Origin: an uncultured Algibacter sp.
GTDB taxonomy: Bacteria > Bacteroidota > Bacteroidia > Flavobacteriales > Flavobacteriaceae
Reading direction: 5' to 3'
Assembly: GCF_947487575.1 (NCBI RefSeq)
Contig: NZ_CANKXG010000007.1
Span: forward strand, 62,001 to 126,000
DNA: 64,000 bases
The notes under the pieces were generated by a model. The model ran no database searches. It was not told the origin of the DNA and saw nothing but the letters and a program-made list of their open reading frames with translations. Of this stretch, positions 43,811-61,485 are shown piece by piece (the stretch's first letter is position 1; the number at the start of each line of letters is the position of its first letter). Both the position numbers and the translations under genes were made by a program.

Positions 43811-44533
43811 ATGGAGCACATAGAATTATTTTTTAAGTCAATTTTTATTGATAATATGGTGTTTTCGGTATTCTTAGGTATGTGTTCATACTTAGCAGTA
43901 TCTAAAAAAGTTGCTACAGCAGTAGGTCTTGGTGCAGCTGTAATATTTGTATTGGCAATTACAGTGCCTTTAAACTGGTTATTGGATCAATATTTATTGC
44001 AACCTGGAGCTTTAAAATGGTTAGGAGAAGAATATGTAGATTACGATTTGAGTTTTCTTTCTTTTATAATGTTTATAGCAACCATAGCAACTATGGTGCA
44101 ATTGGTAGAAATTGTAGTTGAGAAATTCTCACCATCACTTTATAACTCTTTAGGTATATTTTTACCACTTATTGCAGTAAACTGTGCCATTTTAGGAGGG
44201 TCATTATTTATGCAATCTCGTGAAATTGAAACTTTAGGTTTAGCATTTAATTATGGTGTGTCTTCTGGTATTGGATGGTTTTTAGCCATTTTAGCCATTG
44301 CAGCCATTCGTGAAAAAATTAGATATAGTAATGTGCCAGCACCTTTAAGAGGTTTAGGAATTACATTTATAATTACAGGACTTATGGGAATTGGTTTTCT
44401 AAGTTTTGGAGGGATGTTAACTGGTGGTGATGAAGAAGAAGAACAACCAGCCACAGAAACAGCCATAGACGTTGAGAAATTAGAAACTGAAAAAGCTAAG
44501 GAATTAGCTGATAACACTAAAATAGTTAAGTAG
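43811..44533 (+). CDS. nqrE: Na(+)-NQR subunit E
   Basis: [76 protein letters not shown]. Confidence 0.96.
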
Positions 44534-44534
44534 T

Positions 44535-45845
44535 ATGATGATTTTAGCAGCAGGAACAACAGGAACAGTTATAGCAACAGTTGTAGCGTTTTTAATAATC
44601 ACGCTAGTACTTGTTAGTTTATTACTTTTTGTAAAACAAAAACTATCGCCATCTGGTCCAGTAAAAATCACTATTAATGGTGAAAGAGAAATAGAAGTTG
44701 CATCTGGAGGTAGTTTATTATCTACTTTAGGAGCTCAAAAAATATTTTTGCCATCAGCTTGTGGTGGTGGTGGAACATGTATTCAATGTGAATGCCATGT
44801 ACTATCTGGTGGAGGTGAAGCTTTGCCTACTGAAACACCTCACTTTTCTAGAAAAGAATTGGCACATGGTGCACGTTTATCATGTCAGGTAAAAGTAAAA
44901 CAAGACATGGATATTACCATTCCGGAAGAAGTATTTGGTATTAAAAAATGGGAAGCTACGGTTGTACGTAACTATAATGTAGCCTCATTTATTAAGGAGT
45001 TTGTTGTTGAAATTCCTGAAGATATGGGTTACAAAGCAGGTGGATATATTCAAATTGAAATTCCGCCATGCGAGGTGAAGTATTCAGATATGGATATTAC
45101 AGCGCATCCTGAAGAACATGATACACCAGATAAATTTCAAACAGAATGGGACAAATTTGGTTTATGGCCTTTAGTAATGAAAAATACAGAAACTATTGAG
45201 AGAGCATATTCTATGGCTTCTTATCCTGCTGAAGGACGCGAAATTATGTTAAACGTTCGTGTGGCATGTCCACCATGGGATAGGGCTAAAAATGGATGGA
45301 TGGATGTTAATCCAGGTATTGCTTCATCTTATATTTTTAATCAAAAACCAGGTGATAAAGTAACTATTTCAGGACCTTATGGTGAATTTTTTATCAACGA
45401 GTCTGATAGTGAAATGCTTTACGTTGGTGGTGGTGCAGGAATGGCACCAATGCGTTCACACTTATACCATTTATTTAGAACTTTAAAAACTGGACGTAAA
45501 GTTACGTATTGGTACGGTGGACGTTCTAAACGTGAGTTATTCTATTTAGAACATTTTGAAAAATTAGAAAAAGATTTTCCAAACTTTAAGTTCTACTTAG
45601 CATTATCCGAACCTATGGAAGAAGACAATTGGAAAGTAAAAGAAGATATTGATGCACCTGGTGATGGATTTGTTGGATTTATTCACAATTGTGTGATTGA
45701 CAACTATTTAAGCAAGCATGAGTCGCCAGAAGATATTGAATTATATTTCTGTGGGCCGCCATTAATGAACAAAGCTGTTCAGAAAATGGGTGAAGATTTT
45801 GGTATCCCAGATGAACACATCAGATTTGATGACTTTGGAGGCTAG
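44535..45845 (+). CDS. nqrF: Na(+)-NQR subunit F
   Basis: 2Fe-2S CGGGGTCIQCECHVL, RAYSMASYPAE-type FAD motif, VGGGAGMAPMRSHLYHLFRTLKTGRKVTYWYGGRSKRELFY, ELYFCGPPLMNKAV. Confidence 0.97.
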   Translation: MMILAAGTTGTVIATVVAFLIITLVLVSLLLFVKQKLSPSGPVKITINGEREIEVASGGSLLSTLGAQKIFLPSACGGGGTCIQCECHVLSGGGEALPTETPHFSRKELAHGARLSCQVKVKQDMDITIPEEVFGIKKWEATVVRNYNVASFIKEFVVEIPEDMGYKAGGYIQIEIPPCEVKYSDMDITAHPEEHDTPDKFQTEWDKFGLWPLVMKNTETIERAYSMASYPAEGREIMLNVRVACPPWDRAKNGWMDVNPGIASSYIFNQKPGDKVTISGPYGEFFINESDSEMLYVGGGAGMAPMRSHLYHLFRTLKTGRKVTYWYGGRSKRELFYLEHFEKLEKDFPNFKFYLALSEPMEEDNWKVKEDIDAPGDGFVGFIHNCVIDNYLSKHESPEDIELYFCGPPLMNKAVQKMGEDFGIPDEHIRFDDFGG

Positions 45846-45876
45846 GCGGATTGCTAAGCGAATATTATTCATTTAG

Positions 45877-45910
45877 GTCATTGCGAGCAAAGCGTGGCAA
45901 TCTTTTAAAT
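45877..45910 (+). repeat. Truncated GTCATTGCGAG element
   Basis: GTCATTGCGAGCAAAGCGTGGCAATCTTTTAAAT resembles the left half of the 10370 copy. Confidence 0.5.
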
Positions 45911-45929
45911 CAAATCAAAATTATATTAA

Positions 45930-45960
45930 AAACCAACTCTTATCGAGTTGGTTTTTTTAT
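45930..45960 (+). terminator. Terminator of the nqr operon
   Basis: AAAACCAACTCTTATCGAGTTGGTTTTTTTA. Confidence 0.85.
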
Positions 45961-45980
45961 GACTTTATTTCTAAAATGTT

Positions 45981-46430
45981 TTAAACTAATTCAAACTTAG
46001 CTTTTTTATTTTTAACCTCAAATAGCTTCGTGTAATCCATCACGTTTGCAACACCATCCAATTCACATAAAAGCTTGATTACTTCGGACAAACCATTAAA
46101 TAAAATATCCTTATCCGTTGGATTTTTTGGTTTAAAATTTTTATGATGAAGCGGTAATTGAAAACCACAACCTTGTAAAAAGGAGGCTTCAATTTTAAGT
46201 AAATCCAATGGGGAATAGCCATTAAATTTTCTGCCTAAGTTTTGATGGATTATACCTACATAGTTGAGTTTTAAATTACCATGAAAATCTGATAGATGTT
46301 TCCAGCTATCGGTATTATCTAAAATGTTTCCTACGGCACATTGCTTACAACACTCTGGATTTAAGGTGTTGTTATGAAAAGCGATATATAGTTTTTTTAT
46401 AGCAGATTCTATACGAGAAGTAGTCTTCAT
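45981..46430 (-). CDS. Conserved hypothetical, often linked to the nqr locus in flavobacteria (from memory); Cys-rich PECCKQC motif
   Basis: KKLYIAFHNNTLNPECCKQCAVGNILDNTDSWKHLSDFHGNLKLNYVGIIHQNLGRKFNGYSPLDLLKIEASFLQGCGF. Confidence 0.7.
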   Translation of the reverse strand: MKTTSRIESAIKKLYIAFHNNTLNPECCKQCAVGNILDNTDSWKHLSDFHGNLKLNYVGIIHQNLGRKFNGYSPLDLLKIEASFLQGCGFQLPLHHKNFKPKNPTDKDILFNGLSEVIKLLCELDGVANVMDYTKLFEVKNKKAKFELV

Positions 46431-46541
46431 GAGTTAGATTTTTACTTAAAATTACTGAAAACCTGAATTTCATCAGTGAATAAATTCTTAAATTTTTCAT
46501 AATAAAGTAAGAAGTTAGTCTAATTAAGCGTTAGTTTTTAT

Positions 46542-47411
46542 ATGAAAAATGCGTTTAGAATTCTAGTTTTATTAGTGTTGCTATTGGTTTTATTTATTCA
46601 ATTTAAACCTACTGAAAATTCTATTAAGACTATCGCTACTAGAATTAGTACACCCAGTTTAATTAATAAAGATAGCCTTACAATAAAATCAAGAATTAAT
46701 CTTCCCAAAGGTTATAAAAGGGTAGTGTATCCAAGTCAATCATTTCAAGAATATTTAAGAAATTATAAGCTAAAACCGTTTGGAACAAAAATAATTAATT
46801 ATGATAATACCAATTATTTTTGGCAAGGTGGACACATTGGAATACTTGAAATCCCTGTGCCAAAGAATGGGTTACAACAATGTGCTGATGCTTTAATTAG
46901 AATTAGAAGTGAATACTTGTGGGATAAAAATAGAAAAGATGAAATAGGATTCAATTTTACAAGCGGGCATTATTGCTCATGGAAACAATATGCTGAAGGT
47001 TACAGGCCAAAAATAAAGGGTAACAAAGTGTCGTTTCATAAAACCGCTTCAAGTAATCCTTCAAAAGAAAACTTCTATAAATATCTGAATTTAATTTATA
47101 TGTATTCAGGAACTTTGTCGCTTTATTATGAACTTCCAAAAATTAATTCGGCTAAAGACTTGAAAATTGGCGATATGCTCATTAAGGGTGGTTCGCCTGG
47201 GCATATTGTAATGGTTTGTGATGAAGCTATAAATGGTAAAGGGGAGAAATTATTTCTATTGTTTCAGGGTAATACACCTGCGCAGAGTGTACATTTAGTT
47301 AAAAACCTTGAAGACTCGAATATATCGCCATGGTATCAACTCAAAAAAGATGCAGTTATACCTGTTTCTAACTATACTTTTGGGAGTGCTAAGTTTGTAA
47401 GGTTTAAATAA
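46542..47411 (+). CDS. DUF4846-like protein
   Basis: Signal anchor, LPKGYKRVVYPSQSFQEYLRNYKLKP, YFWQGGHIGILEIPVPKNGLQQCADALIRIRSEYLW, GDMLIKGGSPGHIVMVCD. Confidence 0.85.
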   Translation: MKNAFRILVLLVLLLVLFIQFKPTENSIKTIATRISTPSLINKDSLTIKSRINLPKGYKRVVYPSQSFQEYLRNYKLKPFGTKIINYDNTNYFWQGGHIGILEIPVPKNGLQQCADALIRIRSEYLWDKNRKDEIGFNFTSGHYCSWKQYAEGYRPKIKGNKVSFHKTASSNPSKENFYKYLNLIYMYSGTLSLYYELPKINSAKDLKIGDMLIKGGSPGHIVMVCDEAINGKGEKLFLLFQGNTPAQSVHLVKNLEDSNISPWYQLKKDAVIPVSNYTFGSAKFVRFK

Positions 47412-47433
47412 GCCTATTTCTTGTTAATTAAAA

Positions 47434-47460
47434 TGCTCACATTTTTAATTTGTTTTGATG
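47434..47460 (+). promoter_or_regulatory. TGATGACATTTT-N10-CGATG-type promoter element, site 4
   Basis: TGCTCACATTTT-TAATTTGTTT-TGATG, 34 bp upstream of the 47494 ATG. Confidence 0.45.
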
Positions 47461-47493
47461 TTATATTATATATAACAATTAAAGCTATTAATT

Positions 47494-49446
47494 ATGAAAA
47501 GAATTATACTTTTTACAATGTGTTTTGCATTCGCATTTACAAACTTAAATGCGCAAGATTATAATCAGGTGATTTTTACAGGAGAAGGAGGTAGTGATGC
47601 TTGGGAAGATCCTGAAAATTGGCGTAGAGGAGGAGACCCCACACTTCCTGGGGTGCCAGAATCAGGTGATGATATTTTAATTGATGGATATTCTGTGTAT
47701 TTTAATGGTCTTGGCTCAATTCCTCTTAGTCAAGAATATGGAACTTTAGAGTTACGGTTTGGCGCTCACTTATTCACGCAAGGAGATTTTAATCTTACAG
47801 GAGATTTTATTGTAGATGCGTCAAGTACTTTTGAGGTTATTGTTCAAGATATTGATTTATTTAAAAAAGTAACATGTTCATATTTTTCTTTTGTTGGAAA
47901 ATTGAATTTAATTTTTTTAGGATATGCACCGCAAATAGGAGATAGTTTCCAGGTTATTGAAGGTGAACATCAATTTTGTCCCTCAACATCACCTTATGAA
48001 AATTTTAATACAGATTTTGAAACCATATTAACAGCTCAATGTGGTGCAGATGGTTATGGTTTAAGTGTAGAGGTTCTAGGGATTAATTATACAACTTCTA
48101 CTTCATGGGATGGAGAGGGAAATGATAGTGATTGGGATAATCCTGCCAACTGGGATCCTAATGGTGTTCCAACAGCAAATTCAAGAGTTATAATTAATAA
48201 ACCAGGTGCTGGTGGCTATGTAAGAACAAAAGGGGCTGGTGTAACGGTTGTTAAAAATATTATATTGGGAGCTAATAATACTTTAGAAATAAATGGTGAT
48301 TTACTTGTTGATAAGTTTGTTTCTGTTAATAAAGGCGCTACTTTTTTATGGCAAGGGGGTAAAATTTATAGTAATGACTCTAATAATCAATCTGGAATAA
48401 CAGCTTATGGAAATATAATTCTAGATGGACCTGGGACTAAAGAATTAGATACTAATTTTTATATGATATCCTATTTTGAAGATATAAATCACAACCAAGG
48501 AGATTTAAACATCAATGATGGTTATGTAAGGATGTTTAACTATAATAGTTATAATATTAATGGAGATGATATTAGTATAGGTTATACAAGTGGTGATAGA
48601 CATGAATTAACTATTAGTGTTGTAAGTCAACTTAAGAAAACAGCAGGGACTGGTAGCTCTTCAATTAATTTAACAACATTTATAAATTATGGAGATATTA
48701 TTAGTGAATCTGGCACATTGGTTATAAATGGCGATTTGCAAACAGGAGAATTTGAAGAATATATTGATGGACAACTCGTAGAGTATATAGGAAGCTACGG
48801 AGGTAGCGGAAATGTTCAATTCCCAGAGGGCTTTGTTCTAGATGGAGAAATTGCTCCGGGAAGTTCTCCCGGTATTTTAACGGTTGTTGGAGATTTAACA
48901 ACATCATCTGAAGCAACTTTTGAGATTGAAATTGATGGTACTATTGCTGGCACACAATATGACCAAGTTTTAGTTACAGAAAATGCAATACTAGAAGGAG
49001 AAGTTATTGTTACATTAGGTTACTTGCCAGCAAACGATGCGAGCTTTGAAATTTTAACATCTACTGCAATTTCTATTTGTAACCTTCCAGAAACAGTTTC
49101 TGCAAGTTTTAGTGGTACACCCTATACATTTACCGTGGAGTGTTTTAATAATTCGGTTTATTTAAATGGACCAGGTGCTACACTTTCTAATTCAGAAAAT
49201 ATATTAGATGAATTAACAATATATCCTAATCCAGCTATTAATGTTTTAAATATAAAATCTAGTTTGATTAGTAAAGGTAATTGGCAACTAATTAATCAAT
49301 TAGGACAAGTTGTAAAAGCTTCAATATTTGAAGCTGATGAAATTAATATTTTTGTTAATGACCTTGAAACAGGTTTATATTTCTTTAAGATTGAAGATGA
49401 AAATTTAGATGCTACAGTAACTAAACGGATAGTAATATCTAACTAA
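47494..49446 (+). CDS. Secreted beta-helix/autotransporter-repeat-like protein with T9SS type A sorting domain
   Basis: Signal peptide; EIAPGSSPGILTVVGDLTTSSEATFEIEIDGTIAGTQYDQVLVT; C-terminal LTIYPNPAINVLNIKSS...LETGLYFFKIEDENLDATVTKRIVISN. Confidence 0.9.
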   Translation: MKRIILFTMCFAFAFTNLNAQDYNQVIFTGEGGSDAWEDPENWRRGGDPTLPGVPESGDDILIDGYSVYFNGLGSIPLSQEYGTLELRFGAHLFTQGDFNLTGDFIVDASSTFEVIVQDIDLFKKVTCSYFSFVGKLNLIFLGYAPQIGDSFQVIEGEHQFCPSTSPYENFNTDFETILTAQCGADGYGLSVEVLGINYTTSTSWDGEGNDSDWDNPANWDPNGVPTANSRVIINKPGAGGYVRTKGAGVTVVKNIILGANNTLEINGDLLVDKFVSVNKGATFLWQGGKIYSNDSNNQSGITAYGNIILDGPGTKELDTNFYMISYFEDINHNQGDLNINDGYVRMFNYNSYNINGDDISIGYTSGDRHELTISVVSQLKKTAGTGSSSINLTTFINYGDIISESGTLVINGDLQTGEFEEYIDGQLVEYIGSYGGSGNVQFPEGFVLDGEIAPGSSPGILTVVGDLTTSSEATFEIEIDGTIAGTQYDQVLVTENAILEGEVIVTLGYLPANDASFEILTSTAISICNLPETVSASFSGTPYTFTVECFNNSVYLNGPGATLSNSENILDELTIYPNPAINVLNIKSSLISKGNWQLINQLGQVVKASIFEADEINIFVNDLETGLYFFKIEDENLDATVTKRIVISN

Positions 49447-49506
49447 ATTTAATTGTATTTTATCAAGATGAATTCTAAGAAAGAGTTGCTAGAAATAGTA
49501 ACTCTT

Positions 49507-52500
49507 TTACTTTTTACGAGTTTTAATAATATAAATTGTGGCAAGTATAAGTAATAAGGCACTTAGTAAATACCAAATAATGTTTGAAGTTGTATTTAAA
49601 CTTATGGGGTTAGTGTCTCCTATTAATACCAATCCAGCCCAGTATTGTGGATGAACAACTCTTCCTTCACTTTTATCAATATAATCTAGTTTTGCTTGCT
49701 GTAGCGCTTTGTCTTTGGGTAGTCCTTTTTTTATATTATCATAAAACAATTGTATGATTTTAGAACTAGACTGTTCGTCAATTTTCCATAGACTTGTTAA
49801 AATACTCTCACTACCAGCGTAGTTAAAAGCATGTGCTAGAGATATCATCCCTTCTCCCGTTTGATACGTAGGTTTTCCTGTTTCACAAGCAGTTAAAATG
49901 GCAAGGTTAGAGTTTAAATTTTCATTGTAAATTTCATAAGTGTATAGCGAGTTGTCTTCATCTTCAATATTCTTAGCAAATATTAAACGAGATAATTCGG
50001 GAGATACGTTATTAGATTCAGCATGAGTACCAATATGAATAATTTTATGTTCGTTAGCTTCATTTTTGAAAATTTGTTTTGAAGCATTTTCATTTATAAA
50101 ATAATCTCCATTAAACAGTCTAGAATAGGCTTTGGCTAAATCTACACTAAATGGCTGGGGTAATAGCGTAAGGTATGTTTCATCAATGGATAGAGAGTCT
50201 TGTATAGCAACGCTATAATTTTGTTTCATTTTGTCATTAAACTCTGGCGCAAAAGCAATGAAGTCTTTTTGGAAGTTTATTGGATTTTTTTGAGCATCTA
50301 ATAAAAGCAAACTGTAATTGTATGAAATAGTATAGTTTGAGAGCAAGCTATTTGTGCCTAACTCTTTAAACGATTTTACTTTTGCAGGTGTTAAGCTTTC
50401 AAAGCTTAAATTAAATAATATACCGTCAGGAATAATAATTACATGGTCTGTGGTTATTTCCTTTTCAAAGGGCTGCCATAGTTGATGGTATAGCATATGT
50501 AATTTGCTACTCGTCGATTCAAGGTCAGATGGATTTTCTGATAGTTGAGAAATAAGGTTTTCAATGTTTCTGCTATCTAGTTTGAATATTTTTTTTTCTT
50601 GATTATTAATAACTGCGGCATATAATTCATTTTCAATGAATATGTAGCGCAAAACAGTGCTATGCTTTGGAATGTTTTCGTGAAGATTATTTAAAGGTTC
50701 TTCAATAGTTGCATAGCGCATCTTATAATATTTTGGATAGAAGGTTTTTAAAGAATCTAGAAAAGTTGTCCATTTATTATTGTTTTCAATAAGGGATTGG
50801 ACGGGATTATTCTCCTGTTCTTCAAAATTAGAATTTTGCAGCTTTCTAAGCATGTTTTCTCTTTCTATTACTCCACTTGGAATATCTGTAAAAGAAATTG
50901 ATTTTTTAAGGTTTAGGCGTGCTCGTATTCTATTATATAAAGCAGATTCATGAAGACTTATTGTTTTGTTTAAATACCTTGGATTATTTGTTAGTTGATA
51001 TAATTCAAGGTTTATTTTTTTTGCAAAATTAAAGGCTTCATAATTGTTATCTATCAACCTATTTACATCTATTACACTTGTTATTAATGCTCTTCTTTCT
51101 TCCAAAGTATGTATAGCTTTTTTAACATCTATTAGAATGTTCTTCAAGAACAAGCTGTCTTTAGTTTTTGATAATTGGTATCTTGATTTTGCGTTAAGAA
51201 TTAATACTTCCGCTTTATATCCTTCAAAATGTGATTTGTCATAACTGTTTTTAACGGTGTCGTTGTACTTTTCATATAAAGCGATACTTTTTTTGCTCCA
51301 TTCTAAACTCTCCTTATAATTATCTGTGAGCATTGATGTTTTAGCTAGCGCTACTAGCACAATATTTATTAAATTACTTTGTTCACTTTTATTTTTTAGG
51401 AAGTAATTATAGGTGTTTTTTAAAATTGAAATGGCCTGTTTTTTTTCATTCATTGTAGCTAATACCAAAGATAAATTCGTAATAACAAATAAACGATCTC
51501 TACTGTATTCATTTGGATGAGCTTTTTGATGAAAATGATTACTTAATTCTAAATATTTTTTTGCATCTTCATAGTTTTTTAACTCTTTGTTAATAAGTCC
51601 TTTATTATAATACATGTTGGCTTTTGTAACAAAATTATCCCCTGGTATTTTATTAACTATAATTTCTGCTTCATTTAATAATGATAATGAATATTTAAAT
51701 TCTTTTAGTGGGATTATCACTTCGGCAAGTACTGTAATTGCAGAGAAGTTTTCTAAGCTATTAGGTAATAAATTTTCTTTAGCATGTTTATAGGCTATAC
51801 CACTTATTTTTTTTGATTTTTCAAAATCACCTAAATCAAAATAAAGACTTGATAAATTTCGATATGCTAAAGATAGATTTCGTTGTACACGAAAGGTTAA
51901 TGGATGATTATGAGTGCTATTTAAAAACTCTTTATATAATTTTATGCTTTCTTGAATGAGTAGCATGGCTTCAGCGTATTTACTCTGACTCTGTTTTAGT
52001 AAAACGATATTAGATTTTATGGATGCTGGAAAATATAATCTATTTTCTGGGTTGTCATCCATTTCAATAGTACTTTTTAAGCTCGTTTGGTAATAATGAT
52101 AAGCACTATCAGGTTTTGAAGTAAAGTACATTAAAGCACCAAGGTAATTGTAAACTCTTGCAGATATCTTGAATTTTTGAGACGGATTTTTTTTAATAAT
52201 TTTTAACGCATCCCGTGTATGTTGTTCAAAGAGGTTTATATTTCCAGTTCTTAAAGCATATTCGCTTAAACGGTAGTCTGAATTTAATATGGGTTCATTA
52301 TCATTCTGTTTTAAAGCTATTACTTTAGATTGTTTTGCATAATCATAAGCTTTTTGTGGATTTCCTTGCTCATTAAATAATTTGGATAAATCTATTTTTA
52401 TTTGATGTCTTGACTTTAATGTTAAAGCGTTCTTTTCTAATTTTTTTGCTAAATCTAAACTTTGTTTTATTGTTTTATCTTTATTAATTATTGATAGCTC

Positions 52501-52734
52501 AATCTTTCCAAGGATATACACGTAATGAGATAAAGTGTCATAATTTTTATTTGCTAGATAATATTCAATTTGTTTATTAAGCTCTGTTTTAGCCTTGTCC
52601 AGAGAATCGGTATTTACTAGTTTTTGGACGTATGCAATATCTGAGATAGAATTATTTTGTGCCTGAAATTCAAACATAAAAAAAAACATAAACACTAAAA
52701 ATATGTTTTTATAAAACGAATGCAATTTAATCAT
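49507..52734 (-). CDS. Exported TPR protein with C-terminal CHAT (caspase-like) protease domain and terminal TM anchor
   Basis: Signal MIKLHSFYKNIFLVFMFFFMFEFQAQ; TPR repeats; CHAT His motif KIIHIGTHAES and Cys motif LAILTACETGKPTYQTGEGMISLAHAFNYAGSESILTSLWKIDE; TM near C-terminus IIWYLLSALLLILATIYIIKTRKK. Confidence 0.93.
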   Translation of the reverse strand: MIKLHSFYKNIFLVFMFFFMFEFQAQNNSISDIAYVQKLVNTDSLDKAKTELNKQIEYYLANKNYDTLSHYVYILGKIELSIINKDKTIKQSLDLAKKLEKNALTLKSRHQIKIDLSKLFNEQGNPQKAYDYAKQSKVIALKQNDNEPILNSDYRLSEYALRTGNINLFEQHTRDALKIIKKNPSQKFKISARVYNYLGALMYFTSKPDSAYHYYQTSLKSTIEMDDNPENRLYFPASIKSNIVLLKQSQSKYAEAMLLIQESIKLYKEFLNSTHNHPLTFRVQRNLSLAYRNLSSLYFDLGDFEKSKKISGIAYKHAKENLLPNSLENFSAITVLAEVIIPLKEFKYSLSLLNEAEIIVNKIPGDNFVTKANMYYNKGLINKELKNYEDAKKYLELSNHFHQKAHPNEYSRDRLFVITNLSLVLATMNEKKQAISILKNTYNYFLKNKSEQSNLINIVLVALAKTSMLTDNYKESLEWSKKSIALYEKYNDTVKNSYDKSHFEGYKAEVLILNAKSRYQLSKTKDSLFLKNILIDVKKAIHTLEERRALITSVIDVNRLIDNNYEAFNFAKKINLELYQLTNNPRYLNKTISLHESALYNRIRARLNLKKSISFTDIPSGVIERENMLRKLQNSNFEEQENNPVQSLIENNNKWTTFLDSLKTFYPKYYKMRYATIEEPLNNLHENIPKHSTVLRYIFIENELYAAVINNQEKKIFKLDSRNIENLISQLSENPSDLESTSSKLHMLYHQLWQPFEKEITTDHVIIIPDGILFNLSFESLTPAKVKSFKELGTNSLLSNYTISYNYSLLLLDAQKNPINFQKDFIAFAPEFNDKMKQNYSVAIQDSLSIDETYLTLLPQPFSVDLAKAYSRLFNGDYFINENASKQIFKNEANEHKIIHIGTHAESNNVSPELSRLIFAKNIEDEDNSLYTYEIYNENLNSNLAILTACETGKPTYQTGEGMISLAHAFNYAGSESILTSLWKIDEQSSSKIIQLFYDNIKKGLPKDKALQQAKLDYIDKSEGRVVHPQYWAGLVLIGDTNPISLNTTSNIIWYLLSALLLILATIYIIKTRKK

Positions 52735-52746
52735 ACGATTAAAAAT

Positions 52747-53487
52747 TTACGGTTTCAGTTTTGCTATAATTGCTTTGGCAGTGTCAGTTTCACTTAAGTC
52801 AAGGTGCTTTTTAGCAAGCTCAACGTTACCTTCTTTTAAATAGGCTAATCCTAAATAAAGATAGGCCTCATCTAAAAAAATAAAACCATCTTCTGCTTCT
52901 ATTGATCGCTCTAAAAAAGGAATGGCGTCATTTATATTTTTATTAGCCAAATGGGCTACCCCTAAAAAATAATTTAGAGTGTCATTTTCAGGTTTTTTTT
53001 CCTGTAAAACCTTCCATTTATCAATTGCTATATTATAGTCGCCATGTTTATAGTTTACCATGGCGTCATAAAATGCAAAATTATTAGTGCTACCCATGGT
53101 TGTAGGTAAACCTGGATCTGGTTTAAAATAGTTGGTATATAGTTTTTCGTTTTTTGGAGAGCTGAAAAACCAAATTCCCCCAATGGCTAAAACAAGAGCA
53201 GCAGCTACTGCAATTTTGCTAAAATTTAAAAACCTTACTTTACCACGAATTGGTTTTTTTATGATGGTTTGTGGAATAGCTTCATGAAACTCATCAAGTT
53301 GTTCTTTTAAAGTTTGTGCTTCAATGCCTTTTAGCATCGTTTCAACATCTTTAACTTTAGTTTTGAACTCCTTGTCAAGTTCAAGAAGTTGATTAAAATC
53401 TTTCAATTCTTGAATTGTCATAGAACCATTTATGTAACGTTCTATAATTTCTAGTAATTCTTGTGATATTTCGCTATTATCTTTCAA
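52747..53487 (-). CDS. Single-pass membrane TPR protein (candidate anti-sigma factor)
   Basis: About 95 aa N-terminal cytosolic region, TM IAVAAALVLAIGGIWFF, then TPR units; lies directly between the ECF sigma and CHAT genes. Confidence 0.8.
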   Translation of the reverse strand: MKDNSEISQELLEIIERYINGSMTIQELKDFNQLLELDKEFKTKVKDVETMLKGIEAQTLKEQLDEFHEAIPQTIIKKPIRGKVRFLNFSKIAVAAALVLAIGGIWFFSSPKNEKLYTNYFKPDPGLPTTMGSTNNFAFYDAMVNYKHGDYNIAIDKWKVLQEKKPENDTLNYFLGVAHLANKNINDAIPFLERSIEAEDGFIFLDEAYLYLGLAYLKEGNVELAKKHLDLSETDTAKAIIAKLKP

Positions 53488-53490
53488 TGT

Positions 53491-54069
53491 CTAATTATTG
53501 TGTACTAATACCATGGCACGTAATTTTTCCATACAACGGTATTTTTTATTTCGAGCTGTGTTTTCTTCAATTTTTAGTTCTGATGCAATCTCCTTCAATG
53601 ATTTTTTTTCAAAATAGAAAATGCTTAAAAGTTGTTTACATGGTTGCCCCAAATTTTTAAAAGTTTCCATGGCTAATTTTAGTTTGTTACTTTTTAAGTC
53701 AGTATCTTCATCATTATTAGTCTCATCCTTTATAAAGGTTAATGTTTCATAATCTAAAGACTTAGAGTTTCTAAAAGATTTGGACCTCAAAACATCCATC
53801 CACTTGTTTTTTGCTATTTGATATAGATAGCCTTGTAAAGCAGTGTCATTTTTAGGAATAAACTTATCATTTTTTATTTGTGTCCAAACCGAAATAAAAG
53901 CTTCTTGGTAAATATCCTTAGCATGTTCAATTGAACCACTATTTTTAAGAATTAAGAACTCCACTTTTTTATAGTTTGTTGTGTAAAAGTGTTTTAAAAT
54001 ATCTGATTCATTTGATTTTATTGCACAAACGAGTTCAGATTGACTTAATAAATTTATTGACTTCCCCAT
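53491..54069 (-). CDS. ECF-type RNA polymerase sigma factor
   Basis: LKHFYTTNYKKVEFLILKNSGSIEHAKDIYQEAFISVWTQI, LQGYLYQIAKNKWMDVLRSK, CKQLLSIFYFEKKSLKEIASELKIEENTARNKKYRCMEKLR. Confidence 0.93.
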   Translation of the reverse strand: MGKSINLLSQSELVCAIKSNESDILKHFYTTNYKKVEFLILKNSGSIEHAKDIYQEAFISVWTQIKNDKFIPKNDTALQGYLYQIAKNKWMDVLRSKSFRNSKSLDYETLTFIKDETNNDEDTDLKSNKLKLAMETFKNLGQPCKQLLSIFYFEKKSLKEIASELKIEENTARNKKYRCMEKLRAMVLVHNN

Positions 54070-54085
54070 GAATTAATAGCTAAAG

Positions 54086-54116
54086 GAAAGATACAATTAT
54101 TTCATTTTATAGCAAA
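54086..54116 (-). promoter_or_regulatory. Housekeeping (SigA-type) promoter of the ECF-TPR-CHAT operon
   Basis: Minus strand TTTG-N19-TATCTTTC (consensus TTTG-N~19-TAnnTTTG) just upstream of the ECF gene. Confidence 0.5.
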
Positions 54117-54265
54117 CACTTACACTACCAAAGGGCTAATATTTCGGTTATCTACTTTTATCAAATATTTTAAATTGTTTTGGTAGAACATTGATTATGT
54201 TTTTACCTTGTTTTATAAATTCGTTAATTCTTTTAGAATATACTACCAGACATAAAATGATTTAT

Positions 54266-55024
54266 TTATCCTTGGCCTACAATTATAGTTAATCTTGCTG
54301 TAGATACTATAGATTTATAATAACTTTGAGCATCAGCAAAAGCTGACATTGGCCCACTACCTGTGGATGTATTAGCATGATAAAGCCCTGGTGAGAACTC
54401 AGTTAAGTGACTAGCACCAGATCCTACATTATTACCTTGTCTTATAGAGTCTCCTAGTTTCCAGAAATATGTTCTTCCTACATTAGAAGGAATAACATCT
54501 GGTGTGTAATCTAAAATTTCGAGATGATAGCTTATAGCATTGTCTACCGCGGGTACTTCAAAATAGGCTACTATACCATAGTCTCCAGATCCTTCCCAAT
54601 GCCTATATTCAATATTTAATGTTTTAACAATAACCTCTGGTTCTGTTGTAAAGAAAAATGGAGCTTGAGATGTACCTCCATTATTATCTCTAGCTTCTAT
54701 ATAACCTTCATAATTAGTTTCTGGTTCTAGCTTAGAGAACGTATATGTTAAACCTGTATTACCAGATGCTATTTCTTGTTCTTCTAAAATAATGGCATAT
54801 GTAATAGTATCTTCATCTGGATCAATAGATTCTGTCCATTCTATTGTAGCACCATTTACGGTTGTTTCAATCGTATTTGCAGAAAATATACCAGGATTGG
54901 AATTGTTTGGATCATTTTCGGTTGTTGAACAACTTGTAATTAGGAAAGTGAAAAAAGCGATTAAATGAAATGTTATTTTTTGTGATGTGTTCATTTTTAG
55001 TGTTTTAAAATTATTGATTTTCAT
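54266..55024 (-). CDS. Lipoprotein with fibronectin type III-like domain
   Basis: LITSCSTTENDP lipobox; TTVNGATIEWTESIDPDEDTITYAIILEEQEIASGNTGLTYTFSKLEPETNYEGYIEARDNNGGTS. Confidence 0.8.
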   Translation of the reverse strand: MKINNFKTLKMNTSQKITFHLIAFFTFLITSCSTTENDPNNSNPGIFSANTIETTVNGATIEWTESIDPDEDTITYAIILEEQEIASGNTGLTYTFSKLEPETNYEGYIEARDNNGGTSQAPFFFTTEPEVIVKTLNIEYRHWEGSGDYGIVAYFEVPAVDNAISYHLEILDYTPDVIPSNVGRTYFWKLGDSIRQGNNVGSGASHLTEFSPGLYHANTSTGSGPMSAFADAQSYYKSIVSTARLTIIVGQG

Positions 55025-55030
55025 AGTTTT

Positions 55031-55816
55031 TTATTGAATATTTGGGTTGTCAGGTTCACGGTCATAAATATCTGGAGTGCCATCATTATCTCTGTCGGAA
55101 AGTGATCCTCCACCGACTAATAATTGATTGCTAAGTGGTAAGAAGATATCTAAAACTAGTCTATCAAATTCATTTGTTGGTCCTGCTGAAACAGATGAAG
55201 TCACAGAAAAATTACCAAAAGGAAGCTCTTTTACATTTATCCAAACTATGGCAGTAAACCTTCCGAATCTTAAAAATCGAGACGCATAAATAAAATTAAT
55301 ACCACTGAAACTTTGTGGTACATTAATAGAGCACACCACATCATCAATGCCATTAAAATCATAAGTATTTAACATGTTATCGATAACTACTTTCATGATA
55401 TCATTAACACCGAAATTTGGAGGATATGTAGAACTAGGAACATAATCCCAGGTAACAGCACCATCATTTCTGTCGATATCAATACCCAATGGAAATGGTG
55501 CGTTTGCTATTAAAGGCCTAGATTCCTCACCCTTATAACCTTGCGGTAATGTTATTACGAATAGAGGTGAAGAATGTGGGAACGGTAATAATTGTGGGTT
55601 TTGTAATATAGGTACTTGAGTTAATGGTATAACGCCAGTTTGAGCATATTTATAGTAAGCTCCAGTTGGACCTGTAAGTGTGTTATTTCCATTTCCATTT
55701 ACGCATGTTGTTTGAAAATTTGCAAGACCATTTTGGTTATTATTGATATCATTTGTACTGCATGATAGTATGGCTAGCAGAGTAAGTATAGAACTATATA
55801 ATTTTATAAGTTTCAT
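55031..55816 (-). CDS. Hypothetical lipoprotein with C-terminal Asp-rich calcium-binding-like motif
   Basis: LLAILSCSTNDINNN lipobox; C-terminus SDRDNDGTPDIYDREPDNPNIQ. Confidence 0.75.
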   Translation of the reverse strand: MKLIKLYSSILTLLAILSCSTNDINNNQNGLANFQTTCVNGNGNNTLTGPTGAYYKYAQTGVIPLTQVPILQNPQLLPFPHSSPLFVITLPQGYKGEESRPLIANAPFPLGIDIDRNDGAVTWDYVPSSTYPPNFGVNDIMKVVIDNMLNTYDFNGIDDVVCSINVPQSFSGINFIYASRFLRFGRFTAIVWINVKELPFGNFSVTSSVSAGPTNEFDRLVLDIFLPLSNQLLVGGGSLSDRDNDGTPDIYDREPDNPNIQ

Positions 55817-55843
55817 AATATATTGTTTATGGTTTTATTAAAA

Positions 55844-55870
55844 CATCGTAATCAAATTAAAATGTCATCA
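55844..55870 (-). promoter_or_regulatory. TGATGACATTTT-N10-CGATG promoter element, site 2
   Basis: Minus strand TGATGACATTTT-AATTTGATTA-CGATG upstream of the 55816 lipoprotein gene. Confidence 0.55.
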
Positions 55871-55872
55871 TT

Positions 55873-57003
55873 TTAATTTTCAATTTCATATTCAGTCCAT
55901 TCTTGATTGTTCATTGAATTATCAATATTTGGGTTGTATAGCGCATTATCTGTTCCTATATATTCATTGTTATTATTGCCGTAATAATGATTGTTGTGTC
56001 CTTCTACTTGATAAGTTTGACCCGTATTTGGGTTGGAAACTGTGTTTCTTTCCCAAATACCGCTATTTATTGTTTTTGAATGTCCAGCATCATTAATATT
56101 ATTTCTACGTTTCCAGCTTTCATGACTATCATCTAACATAGAACTATATGTGTTTCCTGTGTTTCTTATTGCTTGTCCTTGCAATCTAATTGCAGCCATA
56201 CGTTGTTGATGCCCCGCATTACTTTGTTTCGATAAATTTGAATAATGATTATTATTAGCTTTAACCCATTCGGCATTTATTTGAAAGTTTACTAAAGCGT
56301 TTATAAAATCTTTTTTAGCTTGCTTATAAATGTTCTTAGGAGCGCCCATGGAGTTTAAGGTGTAGCCCCAGTCCATACCGCCAATGGTAGTGTATTGATT
56401 TGTGAAATAACGAATAATACCAATTGATATGCTTCCATCTTTATCTTCCCACTCCGTAGCTATACACTGATATTGTTTGTTTTCAGGGCTAGCTTTAAAC
56501 AAATAGCTATCAAAGCGTTTGTCAAATTTGGCGAGTTGAGATATTGGAAATTGATTTACCAAACGCAACCCTTGAGATTCTGCATAAGGCTTTAAATCTT
56601 CTTGAATAACTCTATTAATATTTTTAGGGGGTTTAACATTGCTTCCACTCTGTTTAGCATATTGGTTGCGTTGCGGATTATTTGAATAAAAATGAGATAT
56701 AAAACGCTCTCCATATACCTTTACTCCGTTTTTAGATTCAAATAAAATACCTTCTTTAGTATTGTTGCTTTTATTCCATGCTTTAGGAATAGGCATAACA
56801 CCTACGGGCATGCCAAACTGTTTGCTCATTACCTTATAGCCTTTTAGCTTACTGGTGTTTGTTGGTTTTTTTGTGGTTTGATTGTCGCTATTGTAAGTCC
56901 TAGAATTAATATTAAATTCTGCAAAATCGTTGTTTTCTTTTTGTTGTCCGCAGGAAAAAAATAAAACTGTTATCAAGGCAAAGAAGTAAATAGATGTTTT
57001 CAT
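55873..57003 (-). CDS. Hypothetical lipoprotein
   Basis: MKTSIYFFALITVLFFSCGQQKENND lipobox; no recognised domain; start set at MKTSIYFF. Confidence 0.75.
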   Translation of the reverse strand: MKTSIYFFALITVLFFSCGQQKENNDFAEFNINSRTYNSDNQTTKKPTNTSKLKGYKVMSKQFGMPVGVMPIPKAWNKSNNTKEGILFESKNGVKVYGERFISHFYSNNPQRNQYAKQSGSNVKPPKNINRVIQEDLKPYAESQGLRLVNQFPISQLAKFDKRFDSYLFKASPENKQYQCIATEWEDKDGSISIGIIRYFTNQYTTIGGMDWGYTLNSMGAPKNIYKQAKKDFINALVNFQINAEWVKANNNHYSNLSKQSNAGHQQRMAAIRLQGQAIRNTGNTYSSMLDDSHESWKRRNNINDAGHSKTINSGIWERNTVSNPNTGQTYQVEGHNNHYYGNNNNEYIGTDNALYNPNIDNSMNNQEWTEYEIEN

Positions 57004-57041
57004 AAGGGTAGTGTATAGATTATTAATCATTTATACTATCT

Positions 57042-57068
57042 CATCGAACGTATTTAAAAATGTCATCA
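57042..57068 (-). promoter_or_regulatory. TGATGACATTTT-N10-CGATG promoter element, site 1
   Basis: Minus strand TGATGACATTTT-TAAATACGTT-CGATG upstream of the 57003 lipoprotein gene. Confidence 0.55.
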
Positions 57069-57147
57069 TTTAAATTGAAAAAAGACAATCAATATAAGCC
57101 CAAATGTGCTTTACTTGTTAAGTAAAAGCCATGTTTGTTAAACTAAA

Positions 57148-57175
57148 AAACCACCGTATTTAGCGGTGGTTTTTA
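57148..57175 (-). terminator. Terminator of the outer-membrane barrel gene
   Basis: ACCACCG-tatttag-CGGTGGT with A/T tracts. Confidence 0.8.
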
Positions 57176-57211
57176 ATTTACAAATGAAGCTGTGATTTGC
57201 TTTCATCAAAT

Positions 57212-57874
57212 TTAAAAGAAAAAATATCCTACTGAAAGCATAAATAGGCTGTTTTTTACATTTTCACTACTGTCTGAAGAAATATTTGATAAACCAAAAT
57301 TATAACGTGCAGATATATTTATACCATTTTCCAATTTGTATCCTGCTCCTATACCAAATGAAATATCGGTACTATTAAAAAAATTAGATATATCTTGCTC
57401 TATAGCGTTATTGGAAACAGCTGATGAATTAGCATTTGATGATTTGGCATTTGTTGCTCTTTCTGAAGAGCCTGTAGTGGGTGTATTAGTGTTGCCTCCA
57501 GTATTTATATTATCTACTTGAATAGTTGCAGATAATAAGTAGCCAATTTGAGGCCCAGCTTCTATACTTAATTCTTCGTTTACATAATACTTCCCAATTA
57601 TTGGAAGGTTTAAATAATTTAGAGTACCAGTTCCATTAGCTACTTTATAACCTTGTGAAGAAAATAAAAGTTCTGGTTGTAAGTAGAATTCAGTTGATAA
57701 AGGGATTTCTGCCATACCCCCAAAATGAAGAGCTGTCCTGCTTCCTGTACTTTTAATATCTCCAGATGCTGAGGCGAAGTTAATTCCACCTTTTGCTCCA
57801 AATTTTATGTCTTGTGAATTTACAGTTAATACAAGACTTAGAATTACAATTGTTGTTACATAAATTTTTTTCAT
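57212..57874 (-). CDS. Outer-membrane beta-barrel (porin-family) protein
   Basis: MKKIYVTTIVILSLVLTVNSQDIKFGAKGGINFASASGD...LSVGYFFF; terminal aromatic strand; Asn/Ser/Thr-rich loop. Confidence 0.85.
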   Translation of the reverse strand: MKKIYVTTIVILSLVLTVNSQDIKFGAKGGINFASASGDIKSTGSRTALHFGGMAEIPLSTEFYLQPELLFSSQGYKVANGTGTLNYLNLPIIGKYYVNEELSIEAGPQIGYLLSATIQVDNINTGGNTNTPTTGSSERATNAKSSNANSSAVSNNAIEQDISNFFNSTDISFGIGAGYKLENGINISARYNFGLSNISSDSSENVKNSLFMLSVGYFFF

Positions 57875-57969
57875 TGGTTTGATTTTTAAATTAGTATTTA
57901 TTTTTAATTGAATTATGTTATTACGTTTCATTGATTTTTAGTTGAGTTATGTTTAGGTTATTTCTTTTT

Positions 57970-57996
57970 CATACAAATAGTTTGAAAATGTCATCA
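57970..57996 (-). promoter_or_regulatory. TGATGACATTTT-N10-CGATG-type promoter element, site 3
   Basis: Minus strand TGATGACATTTT-CAAACTATTT-GTATG upstream of the barrel gene. Confidence 0.5.
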
Positions 57997-58026
57997 AGAA
58001 AATATCATTTATAGTATTTTTGTAAA

Positions 58027-58404
58027 ATGAGTAAGCCATTAACAGAGCAAGAATTGCATAATCTAGCCATGAATCATGTTGGTAAGGATTTAGAACAGAG
58101 GGGGTTTGAGTTTATAGCTGTAAATAGCAAATTGAAAAAACACCCACAATTTGTTTGTATTGATAAAAACAAACAATATTTTTTTGTTATTGTTCGTGCT
58201 GTAATACTTCCTGAAAACCCAAATAATTATGATGTGGTTTGGATGGAGTCTTTTAAAAGTCACGCTCGAGAGAAAGATGCAAAAGTCCTGTATGCTGGTG
58301 TTGGTATTGGAAGTACTGAAGGCGAAAAGGAACCTATTTACTTAAATCAAGATTATTTATTAGAGTATAATGGTATTCAGGTTTTAGAAACTAATTTAAA
58401 TTGA
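58027..58404 (+). CDS. Conserved hypothetical, directly upstream of apbE
   Basis: 125 aa MSKPLTEQELHNLAMNHVGKDLEQRGFEFIAVNSKLKKHPQFVCIDKNKQYFFVIVRAV... Confidence 0.75.
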   Translation: MSKPLTEQELHNLAMNHVGKDLEQRGFEFIAVNSKLKKHPQFVCIDKNKQYFFVIVRAVILPENPNNYDVVWMESFKSHAREKDAKVLYAGVGIGSTEGEKEPIYLNQDYLLEYNGIQVLETNLN

Positions 58405-58420
58405 AAAGAAATATTAAAAA

Positions 58421-59401
58421 ATGAATAAATTTTTATTGGGGTTATTACTTCTTGCAATTAGTTTTTCATGCAAACAAAATACTAAAAACACAAAACTTGC
58501 TGGCGCTGTTTTTGGAACAAGTTATTCTATTATTTATAACTCTAATGTTAATTATCAAATTCAATTTGATAGTTTGTTTTATGCAATTAATAAGTCAATG
58601 TCTACTTATCAAGTTAATTCAGATATTTCAAAACTTAATAGAAATGAATCCTTTGAAATTGATGAACATTTTGTGAAAGTTTATGATGCTTCAAAAGAAA
58701 TTTTTGGACTAACAGAAGGTGCTTTCGATCCTACAATTGGCAACGTAGTTAATGCATGGAAATTTGGAGCAGAAAACATTATTGAAGATATAGATAGTTT
58801 AAAAATTGATAGCTTAATGCAATATGTAGGATATGATAAAACATATCGACTTGAAAATACTATAAGAAAAGCAAATCCAAATGTGTATTTAGAATTTAAC
58901 GCTATCGCTAAAGGGTATGCTGTAGATGTTATTAGTGAGTTTTTGGAAAGTCAAAGAATAAATAATTATTTAGTTGAAATAGGTGGAGAAATAAGGGCTA
59001 AGGGTCTTAATTTAGAAAATCAAAAAAACTGGAAAGTTGGTTTAGAAGAACCAAATTTTGAGGGAGAACAATCTATTTTAAAGGCCATTAGTTTACATGA
59101 TGAAGCTATGGCAACTTCTGGCACATACAGAAAATTTAAAATTGATAAAAATGGTAAGCGTTATGCGCATATAATTGATACAGATACTGGCTATCCAAGT
59201 AAAACAAATTTGCTAAGTATAACGGTAATTACTGAAGATTGTATGACGGCTGATGCTTATGCTACTGCTTTTAAATCTATGGGTATTGAAAAAGTTAAAA
59301 CCTTTTTGAAGACCCACCCCGAACTTAAGGTGTTTTTAATTTTTGAGAATGACAAACAAGAATTTGAAACACTTGCCTTAAATGGGTTCTCGGTAGACTA
59401 G
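58421..59401 (+). CDS. apbE: FAD:protein FMN transferase
   Basis: GAVFGTSYSIIY, INKSMSTYQVNSDISKLN, GAFDPTIGNVVNAWKFG, FNAIAKGYAVDVISEFL, VEIGGEIRAKG, ATSGTYRKF, HIIDTDTGYP, TADAYATAFKSMG. Confidence 0.96.
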   Translation: MNKFLLGLLLLAISFSCKQNTKNTKLAGAVFGTSYSIIYNSNVNYQIQFDSLFYAINKSMSTYQVNSDISKLNRNESFEIDEHFVKVYDASKEIFGLTEGAFDPTIGNVVNAWKFGAENIIEDIDSLKIDSLMQYVGYDKTYRLENTIRKANPNVYLEFNAIAKGYAVDVISEFLESQRINNYLVEIGGEIRAKGLNLENQKNWKVGLEEPNFEGEQSILKAISLHDEAMATSGTYRKFKIDKNGKRYAHIIDTDTGYPSKTNLLSITVITEDCMTADAYATAFKSMGIEKVKTFLKTHPELKVFLIFENDKQEFETLALNGFSVD

Positions 59402-60166
59402 TTATTTAAAAACTACAGGAATAATTTCGCCTTTAGCCAAACAAAAATTTTCTATCACTTCCTCGGAAAGAGAACTTGTATAGTCAACTTCTTCAACTTT
59501 AAAACCAATACCTCGAAGCTTATCAAAATAATCACGCCCATATACACGAACATGGTCATATTGACCAAATATTTTAGCACGCTCTTTTTTATCTGTAATG
59601 CTATTATCCTCAAAAGTAACTTCTCTTTTTAAATCTTGAGGAATTTGAAAAACACCCATACCACCAACTTTCAAAATACGATATAATTCTTGCATTGCTT
59701 TGGTGTCCTCTGGAATATGCTCTAAAACATGGTTGCATAAAATAACATCAAACTCATTGTCTTTAAAAGGAAGGTTACAAATATCTGCTTTTACATCTGC
59801 TAAAGGTGAATTTAAATCTGTTGTAACATAATTTAAATTACTCATGTTTTTGAAGCGTTTATAAAACGCTTGTTCAGGAGCAAAATGAAGCACTTTTAAT
59901 TTTTCTGAAAAGAACTTCGTTTCGTTTTGAAGATATAGCCAAAGTAATCTATGGCGCTCTAAACTTAATGTTGATGGAGATAACACGTTATTGCGTTGGT
60001 TGCCATAACCATAAGGTAAAAAGGTTCTAAAACTTTTGCCATCAATAGGATCTGTGAATTTGCCTCCTTTTAAAAAAAATGCTAAAACTGGGCGAATTAC
60101 ATAGCTTAACCTTATAAGTAAAGGTCTAGGAACTATATTGAGAATAGTCTTAAAAAGGCGTTTCAT
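59402..60166 (-). CDS. Class I SAM-dependent methyltransferase
   Basis: LHFAPEQAFYKRFKNM, YVTTDLNSPLADVKADICNLPFKDNEFDVILCNHVLEHIPEDTKAMQELYRILKVGG. Confidence 0.92.
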   Translation of the reverse strand: MKRLFKTILNIVPRPLLIRLSYVIRPVLAFFLKGGKFTDPIDGKSFRTFLPYGYGNQRNNVLSPSTLSLERHRLLWLYLQNETKFFSEKLKVLHFAPEQAFYKRFKNMSNLNYVTTDLNSPLADVKADICNLPFKDNEFDVILCNHVLEHIPEDTKAMQELYRILKVGGMGVFQIPQDLKREVTFEDNSITDKKERAKIFGQYDHVRVYGRDYFDKLRGIGFKVEEVDYTSSLSEEVIENFCLAKGEIIPVVFK

Positions 60167-60168
60167 GC

Positions 60169-60987
60169 TTAAAGCACTAAAGCTTTTTGTCTGAATTCTT
60201 CTTCTTCATTAGAAGTAATTCCTAAAGCTTCATAAATATATGCAAACGTTGAAAGCAATTCAGGTTTGCCATCAATTAAAGCAACATCATGCTCAAAGTG
60301 TGCGGAGGGTTTATTGTCTTGAGTAGTTATTGTCCAACCGTCTCTATGTTGCTTAATCCTATGTGTTCCTAAATTAATCATAGGCTCAATGGCTACTACC
60401 ATGCCTTCAATAAATTTTTTGCCTCTACCACGTTTTCCGTAGTTTGGCATTTCTGGGTCTTCATGCATTTTGCTGCCTAAACCATGACCAACTAATTCGC
60501 GTACCACACCATATCCATGATCTTCACAATATTTTTGAATGGCATAACCAACATCGCCAACACGATTATTGGCTTTAAATTCTCTTATACCTACATATAG
60601 AGATTCTTTGGTTACTTGTAATAATTTTTCTGTTTCGGGGTCAATATCTCCTACTGCAAATGTATAGGCATGATCACCATAAAAACCATTTTTTAAAGCA
60701 CCGCAATCTATTGAAATAATATCGCCTTCAACTAAAGGATTTCCATTTGGAATGCCATGTACTACCTGTGAATTAGGGCTCATACAAAGCGTATTTGGAA
60801 AATCATATAATCCTAAAAATCCAGGGATTGCGCCATGGTCTCTAACACATGTTTCAGCTATTTTATCTAATTCAAGCGTTGTTACTCCAGGTTTTATTGC
60901 CTTAGCTAATTCGCCTAAAGTCTTAGATACGATTAATGCACTTTCTCGCATTAATTCAATTTCCTCTTTTGTTTTAACAATAATCAT
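60169..60987 (-). CDS. map: Type I methionine aminopeptidase
   Basis: MRESALIVSKTLGELAKAIKPGVTTLELD, GDIISIDCGALKNGFYGDHAYTFAVG, LVGHGLGSKMHEDPEMPNYG, GMVVAIEPMI, HFEHDVAL. Confidence 0.97.
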   Translation of the reverse strand: MIIVKTKEEIELMRESALIVSKTLGELAKAIKPGVTTLELDKIAETCVRDHGAIPGFLGLYDFPNTLCMSPNSQVVHGIPNGNPLVEGDIISIDCGALKNGFYGDHAYTFAVGDIDPETEKLLQVTKESLYVGIREFKANNRVGDVGYAIQKYCEDHGYGVVRELVGHGLGSKMHEDPEMPNYGKRGRGKKFIEGMVVAIEPMINLGTHRIKQHRDGWTITTQDNKPSAHFEHDVALIDGKPELLSTFAYIYEALGITSNEEEEFRQKALVL

Positions 60988-61028
60988 AAATATAATAATA
61001 GGAGTACAAAGATACTTAAAAAGACAAT

Positions 61029-61448
61029 TTATTTAAATAATCTAAAAAAGCCTTTCCTTTTTTCGGGAATAGGGGGTGTTGAATTTGTTAGCATTTGATA
61101 AACTTCTCCCCAGCCTGGAAAACCACCTATGTTTCTATCATCAATAAATAAATCTGCGTTTATTTTTCTACTAATGTCATCTGTGTATTCTTCTTCGGTA
61201 AAACTTTTGTTTACTGCATAAAAACGGATACCATTATCCTCACAAAATTTAACAGCTTCATCAAGTTTGTCACCACATCTGTAAGTCCATAAAATGAGAC
61301 GATGACCATCTTCCTGAAGCTTTTTTAAAGTTTCAAAAGCAAATAGAATAGGTTTTCCTATTTTTGGATATGCATCTTCAACAACAGTACCGTCAAAATC
61401 AACAGCAATAATAAGAGTATCGTTAAAATTCATTTCGTTTAGGGGCAT
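61029..61448 (-). CDS. Small HAD-like hydrolase
   Basis: IIAVDFDGTVVEDAYPKIGKPILFAFETLKKLQEDGHRLILWTYR...INADLFIDDRNIGGFPGWGEVYQ. Confidence 0.88.
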   Translation of the reverse strand: MPLNEMNFNDTLIIAVDFDGTVVEDAYPKIGKPILFAFETLKKLQEDGHRLILWTYRCGDKLDEAVKFCEDNGIRFYAVNKSFTEEEYTDDISRKINADLFIDDRNIGGFPGWGEVYQMLTNSTPPIPEKRKGFFRLFK

Positions 61449-61485
61449 TAATTACCCTGTAAAGTTAATTATTTCTATTTTATCG

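Follow-up and report, generated by a model that had tools for sequence, protein, structure and literature searches.

An operon for an ECF sigma factor, a one-TM TPR protein and an exported TPR-CHAT protein in Algibacter: a candidate envelope proteolysis switch

INTRODUCTION

Why a sigma factor should be encoded with a caspase-like protease that is predicted to lie outside the cytoplasm is the question raised by three minus-strand open reading frames (ORFs) at positions 49507-54069 of the window, the 64,000-nucleotide stretch of uncultured Algibacter sp. DNA analyzed here. A first-pass annotation, made from the letters alone, had described an ECF sigma factor, a one-TM TPR protein and an exported TPR-CHAT protease and had proposed a protease-gated sigma switch. 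The coordinates, the strand and the intergenic gaps of 3 and 12 nt that it gave for the three ORFs were all borne out. Here we ask what the three proteins are, whether their genes belong together in other genomes, and which mechanism the arrangement would support (Table 1).

Table 1. Features of the operon and its surroundings, with positions in the window
Feature	Position	Strand	Basis
ECF sigma factor, 192 aa (sigma2 + sigma4)	53491..54069	-	TIGR02937
Probable membrane anti-sigma factor (middle protein), 246 aa	52747..53487	-	TM, TPR, AF2 model, sub-cutoff anti-sigma matches
Parts of the middle protein: helical anti-sigma-like domain, residues about 1-88; TM, residues 89-110; periplasmic linker; TPR domain, residues 137-244
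Candidate cleavage/recognition linker, middle protein residues 117-134, YTNYFKPDPGLPTTMGST	53086..53139	-	mostly predicted coil, conserved
Exported TPR-CHAT cysteine protease (predicted), 1075 aa	49507..52734	-	PF12770, invariant dyad, AF2 model
Parts of the CHAT protein: signal peptide; TPR superhelix; CHAT domain, residues 745-1040 (His904, Cys950); TM, residues 1052-1070
385-aa lipoprotein, conserved neighbor on the upstream side of the sigma gene	55873..57030	-	homologues in 13 related loci
650-aa T9SS-exported protein, convergent to the operon	47494..49446	+	Por_Secre_tail
Sigma operon upstream region	54070..54265	-	TTTG-N16/17-TTGTATCTTTC common to relatives

RESULTS

The sigma factor and the TPR-CHAT protein

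The first gene encodes an ECF sigma factor, as had been annotated: its product scored 76.1 bits with TIGR02937, for which the cut-off is 42.9, and Sigma70_r2 was found above its cut-off while r4 fell just under it (23.5 against 24.1). The sigma2 and sigma4 regions are present and sigma3 is lacking, which is the ECF architecture. Among the 17 sigma matches in the same genome, two were of the operon type, with 227 and 211 bits, and the next best reached 82 bits.

The CHAT domain of the third product was recognized by PF12770 (E=3e-41, 142 bits versus a cut-off of 24), and a signal peptide, TPRs and a C-terminal TM segment were all predicted. The IGTHAE and TACETG motifs are present, so that the description of an exported TPR-CHAT protein with a C-terminal anchor stands. 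The first-pass annotation had further noted an intact His/Cys pair; in our alignment of anchored CHAT homologues, His900, His904 and Cys950 were invariant in all 56. Judged by its sequence, the protein looks like a cysteine protease. Its AF2 model (pLDDT 85) resembles human separase and the TPR-CHAT chain of Craspase (7xsq chain B), and Foldseek also returned DdvA by way of the helical repeats. The TM-scores to these structural relatives were modest, as would be expected if the superhelices differ.

The middle protein as a probable anti-sigma factor

The middle protein has a single predicted TM segment at residues 92-110 and TPR matches at residues 146-230, in agreement with the earlier description of a one-TM protein with TPRs behind the membrane segment. 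Its TTG start is plausible, as relatives begin at the same position and 18 of 60 use TTG. The AF2 model (pLDDT 89) contains helices at residues 9-20, 25-37 and 39-70, followed by the TM segment (residues 89-108), a mostly coiled linker and the TPRs. Based on the charges around the TM segments, we infer that the N-terminus of the middle protein is cytoplasmic and its TPRs periplasmic, and that the CHAT domain of the third protein is periplasmic too.

To characterize the N-terminal domain, we aligned it alone and scanned 24 members singly against protein family models. Anti-sigma models were the commonest matches, all of them under the curated cut-offs: zf-HC2 in 7 members (best 3.7e-4), the NCBIfam anti-sigma model NF052375 in 8 (best 1e-3) and PRK13920, an anti-sigmaE model, in 4 (best 5e-5). 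The N-terminus of the window protein by itself matched none of these three models, and together with the TM segment it matched NF047528, an anti-sigma family, at 9e-4, again below the cut-off. A search of the PDB with the domain profile returned short chance matches at best and no solved anti-sigma factor, and Foldseek with the model of the whole middle protein found the TPRs.

Two known types of regulator were considered and set aside. A zinc-type anti-sigma factor (zf-HC2/ZAS) was rejected because the N-terminal alignment has no conserved Cys or His; anti-sigma domains without zinc do exist. A FecR-type regulator was rejected because the periplasmic FecR domain is absent (no FecR match) and TPRs stand in its place.

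The gene follows directly after the sigma gene, and the predicted topology fits an anti-sigma factor, as does the N-terminus with its weak, sub-cutoff family matches. The earlier assignment of the middle protein as the anti-sigma factor is accordingly upheld as likely, and its N-terminal part is very probably a non-zinc anti-sigma domain, which would bind the sigma factor.

At three loci (L215:5296-6868, L216:5586-7206 and L217:5783-7373), a sigma gene is followed by a gene whose product shares this N-terminal domain and has a TM segment. In these partners, the place of the TPRs is taken by a trypsin-like peptidase whose His/Asp/Ser triad is intact, and they are probable anti-sigma factors with a built-in protease. 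The fusion indicates that this N-terminal domain is used together with proteases.

Linkage of the three genes across genomes

The Algibacter genome (3.5 Mb in 35 contigs, 99.9% complete) holds exactly two CHAT proteins, two TPR proteins and two sigma factors of the operon type, and all of them fall into two trios. The second complete operon (L033:4063-8627), which was absent from the first-pass annotation, encodes a CHAT protein 48-49% identical to the first.

The contig search from a two-sequence CHAT alignment returned mostly close relatives. The association was counted over 96 CHAT genes from Bacteroidota neighborhoods. A sigma/TPR pair was found within 6 kb of 60 of the 73 CHAT genes with a C-terminal TM segment, compared to 4 of the 23 without one. 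The fairest subset for this test comprises loci L083-L122, chosen by Pfam CHAT alone, in which 17 of 20 anchored CHAT genes had a pair within 6 kb versus 2 of 19 unanchored ones (Fisher p=3.4e-6). The linkage is more than chance.

The gene order varied among loci, being collinear with the CHAT gene last, convergent or divergent; the maps gave sigma-TPR-CHAT order for L146-L148, L150 and L152 and a convergent arrangement for L038, L039 and L043. The single-operon form occurs in Algibacter, Mariniflexile, Winogradskyella, Psychroserpens and Xanthomarina and, outside Flavobacteriaceae, in Algoriphagus, Aquiflexum and Mongoliibacter. A cross-genome search for the trio had been suggested as a check, and the three-gene association is indeed kept, with several arrangements of the genes, in Flavobacteriaceae, Cytophagales and other Bacteroidota. 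Two CHAT/TPR loci, L034 and L042, had no adjacent sigma gene. At L127, L138 and L141, two tandem CHAT genes lie behind the sigma/TPR pair.

In the reverse direction, the middle protein served as the starting point. Its 34 full-length homologues in a class-wide sample, unevenly spread in that two genomes contributed ten or more copies each, included 18 with a CHAT gene within 6 kb and 16 with none. Sigma/TPR pairs thus make up a wider family, in which CHAT is a common but not an obligatory companion. In genomes G418 and G486 (L185-L211), sigma/TPR pairs are expanded to ten or more per genome, many of them with no linked CHAT gene. Distance correlations among the sigma factor, the anti-sigma domain, the TPR domain and the CHAT parts were similar for all pairs, and no TPR-CHAT coupling was singled out.

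Genes and signals around the operon

Two further neighbors had not been recorded in the first-pass annotation, namely the genes for the 385-aa lipoprotein and for the convergent 650-aa T9SS-exported protein. In eight loci, including the paralogous operon L033, a homologue of the lipoprotein gene precedes the sigma gene by 56-126 nt; in the window it is located farther upstream. Between it and the sigma gene, at 54266-55816, are two genes for lipoproteins of 252 and 261 aa, whose conservation among relatives is patchy. Homologues of the 650-aa protein adjoin the operon in 9 loci, and the convergent arrangement recurs in several relatives, some of which share no wider synteny. A terminator-like hairpin at 49479-49508 separates this gene from the operon, and the gene is probably a transcript of its own.

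Upstream of the sigma gene, the TTTG-N16/17-TTGTATCTTTC dyad was found in 9 of 30 regions, versus a maximum of 4-5 in shuffled sequences. This motif looks like the Bacteroidota housekeeping promoter of the -33/-7 type (TTTG, TAnnTTTG), and it therefore provides no evidence of autoregulation. In other clades, the neighbors of anchored CHAT genes encode PKD lipoproteins, subtilase lipoproteins (L045:1893-3206, L051:5575-6876) and a small aspartyl protease (L088:7724-8161). Such neighboring lipoproteins, exported proteins and proteases may be sensors, substrates or targets.

The juxtamembrane linker

Although most of the middle protein's linker is predicted to be coil, its conservation (1.74 bits) equals that of the N-terminal domain (1.72) and the TPRs (1.68). 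In 59 of 60 homologues, the linker contained R/K or M with a small residue directly after it, a count that alone proves little, since so short a pattern easily arises by chance; its fixed position within each clade is notable. The candidate position is M131-G132 in the window protein and R/K-S/G in other clades. Clan CD relatives such as separase and metacaspases cleave after Arg/Lys. In the type III-E CRISPR system, deletion of M427 in Csx30 abolishes Csx30 cleavage (PMC10028731). The motif did not discriminate between CHAT-linked and CHAT-less pairs. As the CHAT-less pairs mostly keep it, this motif just outside the membrane can be put forward as a candidate cleavage site only; either a distant CHAT protein serves those pairs, or CHAT is not the cutter.

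DISCUSSION

A proposed mechanism and its alternatives

Given the genes observed and their linkage, the intact dyad, the topology predicted and the anti-sigma-like sequence, we consider the chance about even (roughly 0.5) that the operon is a cell-envelope regulated-proteolysis sigma switch. The cytoplasmic N-terminal helical domain of the middle protein would keep the sigma factor at the inner membrane in an inactive state, while the juxtamembrane linker and the TPR domain would be exposed in the periplasm. The exported TPR-CHAT protein, anchored via its C-terminal TM segment, would sit alongside as a cysteine protease of the separase/Csx29 kind. An envelope signal might be received by its long TPR superhelix, perhaps via a neighboring lipoprotein or the TPRs of the middle protein, upon which the activated CHAT protein would make the site-1 cut in the linker. 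A general site-2 protease of the M50 type, which nearly all bacteria possess and of which this genome has one, would then complete the cleavage together with cytoplasmic proteases and free the sigma factor. Sigma binding, the cleavage and its site, the signal and the regulon are all what we infer in this scheme.

The same genes could be read as a self-contained sigma/anti-sigma pair that senses by way of its own TPRs, of a lipoprotein or of some other site-1 protease, the CHAT protein being an output of the regulon that acts on other envelope proteins. That about half of the sampled pairs have no linked CHAT gene and still carry the linker motif speaks for this reading, as does the fact that CHAT is a separate transcript in the divergent and convergent loci and lies near PKD lipoproteins, subtilases or an aspartyl protease. 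However, the existence of single operons and the specific association with anchored CHAT proteins suggest action at the membrane of the anti-sigma factor, and we regard the self-contained pair as possible but unlikely. Alternatively, the CHAT protein might control the anti-sigma factor by binding without cutting, or hold the system off until a ligand arrives. Both proteins contain TPRs, and Csx29 binding to Csx30 can be uncoupled from cleavage (PMC10028731); against this stands the dyad, whose catalytic residues were lost in none of 56 homologues, which is unexpected in a pure scaffold and renders a binding-only role improbable.

The type III-E CRISPR defence employs a CHAT protease, and by analogy the operon could serve defence or cell suicide, with the CHAT protease as the toxic effector and the sigma factor controlling expression only. 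However, the protease is predicted to be periplasmic, PADLOC gave no noteworthy match for the operon and its upstream neighbors, and no clustered repeats were present in 44000-62000; we judge this explanation very improbable.

Significance

If cleavage were confirmed under the envelope-switch reading, bacterial caspase/separase-type proteases would play a general part, beyond CRISPR, in relaying signals across the membrane to transcription. A function would also be suggested for many unexplained anchored CHAT genes and sigma-adjacent TPR proteins in Bacteroidota. In the literature covered, which was largely open-access and did not extend to the central paper on ECF classification, there was no description of an exported, membrane-anchored TPR-CHAT protein with a TPR anti-sigma factor. 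The association of ECF54 with CHAT (PMC8999054) and the Craspase mechanism, in another compartment, are already known.

Comparison with known systems

The statement in the first-pass annotation that no characterized system has this composition needs correction, as both the Csx29/Csx30/CASP-sigma system (PMC10028731) and the ECF54-CHAT neighborhood (PMC8999054) exist. DdvA (PDB 8rot), reached via the helical repeats of the CHAT model, is similar in kind, being a transmembrane anti-sigma factor of solved structure that includes a region of helical repeats, but the overall TM-score is low (0.21-0.24) and the N-terminal domain of the middle protein has no sequence match to DdvA. Like the proposed switch, the RseA/DegS/RseP system has a one-TM anti-sigma factor whose N-terminal domain lies in the cytoplasm and which extends into the periplasm, and the proposed order of a site-1 and then a site-2 cut is the same. 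Unlike DegS, the putative site-1 protease here is a clan CD cysteine protease encoded by an adjacent gene, not a PDZ serine protease.

ECF54 group sigma factors have CHAT and subtilase genes nearby, and proteolytic control has been proposed for them (PMC8999054). The likeness to this group is one of neighborhood content, an ECF sigma factor with CHAT, together with the subtilase lipoproteins at L045 and L051. ECF54 is described as having no anti-sigma factor (PMC8999054), whereas the operon here includes an anti-sigma-like TPR protein.

A close parallel in composition is Craspase, in which the TPR-CHAT protease Csx29 cuts Csx30, the inhibitor of CASP-sigma (PMC10028731). In both cases, a TPR-CHAT protease, a sigma-inhibiting protease substrate and an ECF-like sigma factor are encoded together, the role of substrate being presumed here for the one-TM TPR protein as the counterpart of Csx30. 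Craspase differs in being cytoplasmic and RNA-triggered via Cas7-11, whereas the CHAT protein of the operon is exported and membrane-anchored. Membership of type III-E CRISPR itself was set aside, as the operon has no CRISPR-like repeats around it in 44000-62000 and no PADLOC match. We suggest tentatively, with somewhat less than even confidence, that the operon represents a widespread periplasmic, non-CRISPR counterpart of Craspase, in which an anchored separase-like protease would serve a family of TPR anti-sigma factors as their dedicated site-1 protease and would cut at the conserved motif (R/K/M)-(G/S) just outside the membrane. This would be a caspase-type envelope pathway, present in several copies in some Bacteroidota genomes, and Csx29/Csx30/CASP-sigma would then seem to be a parallel to an envelope switch, or an offshoot of one in the cytoplasm.
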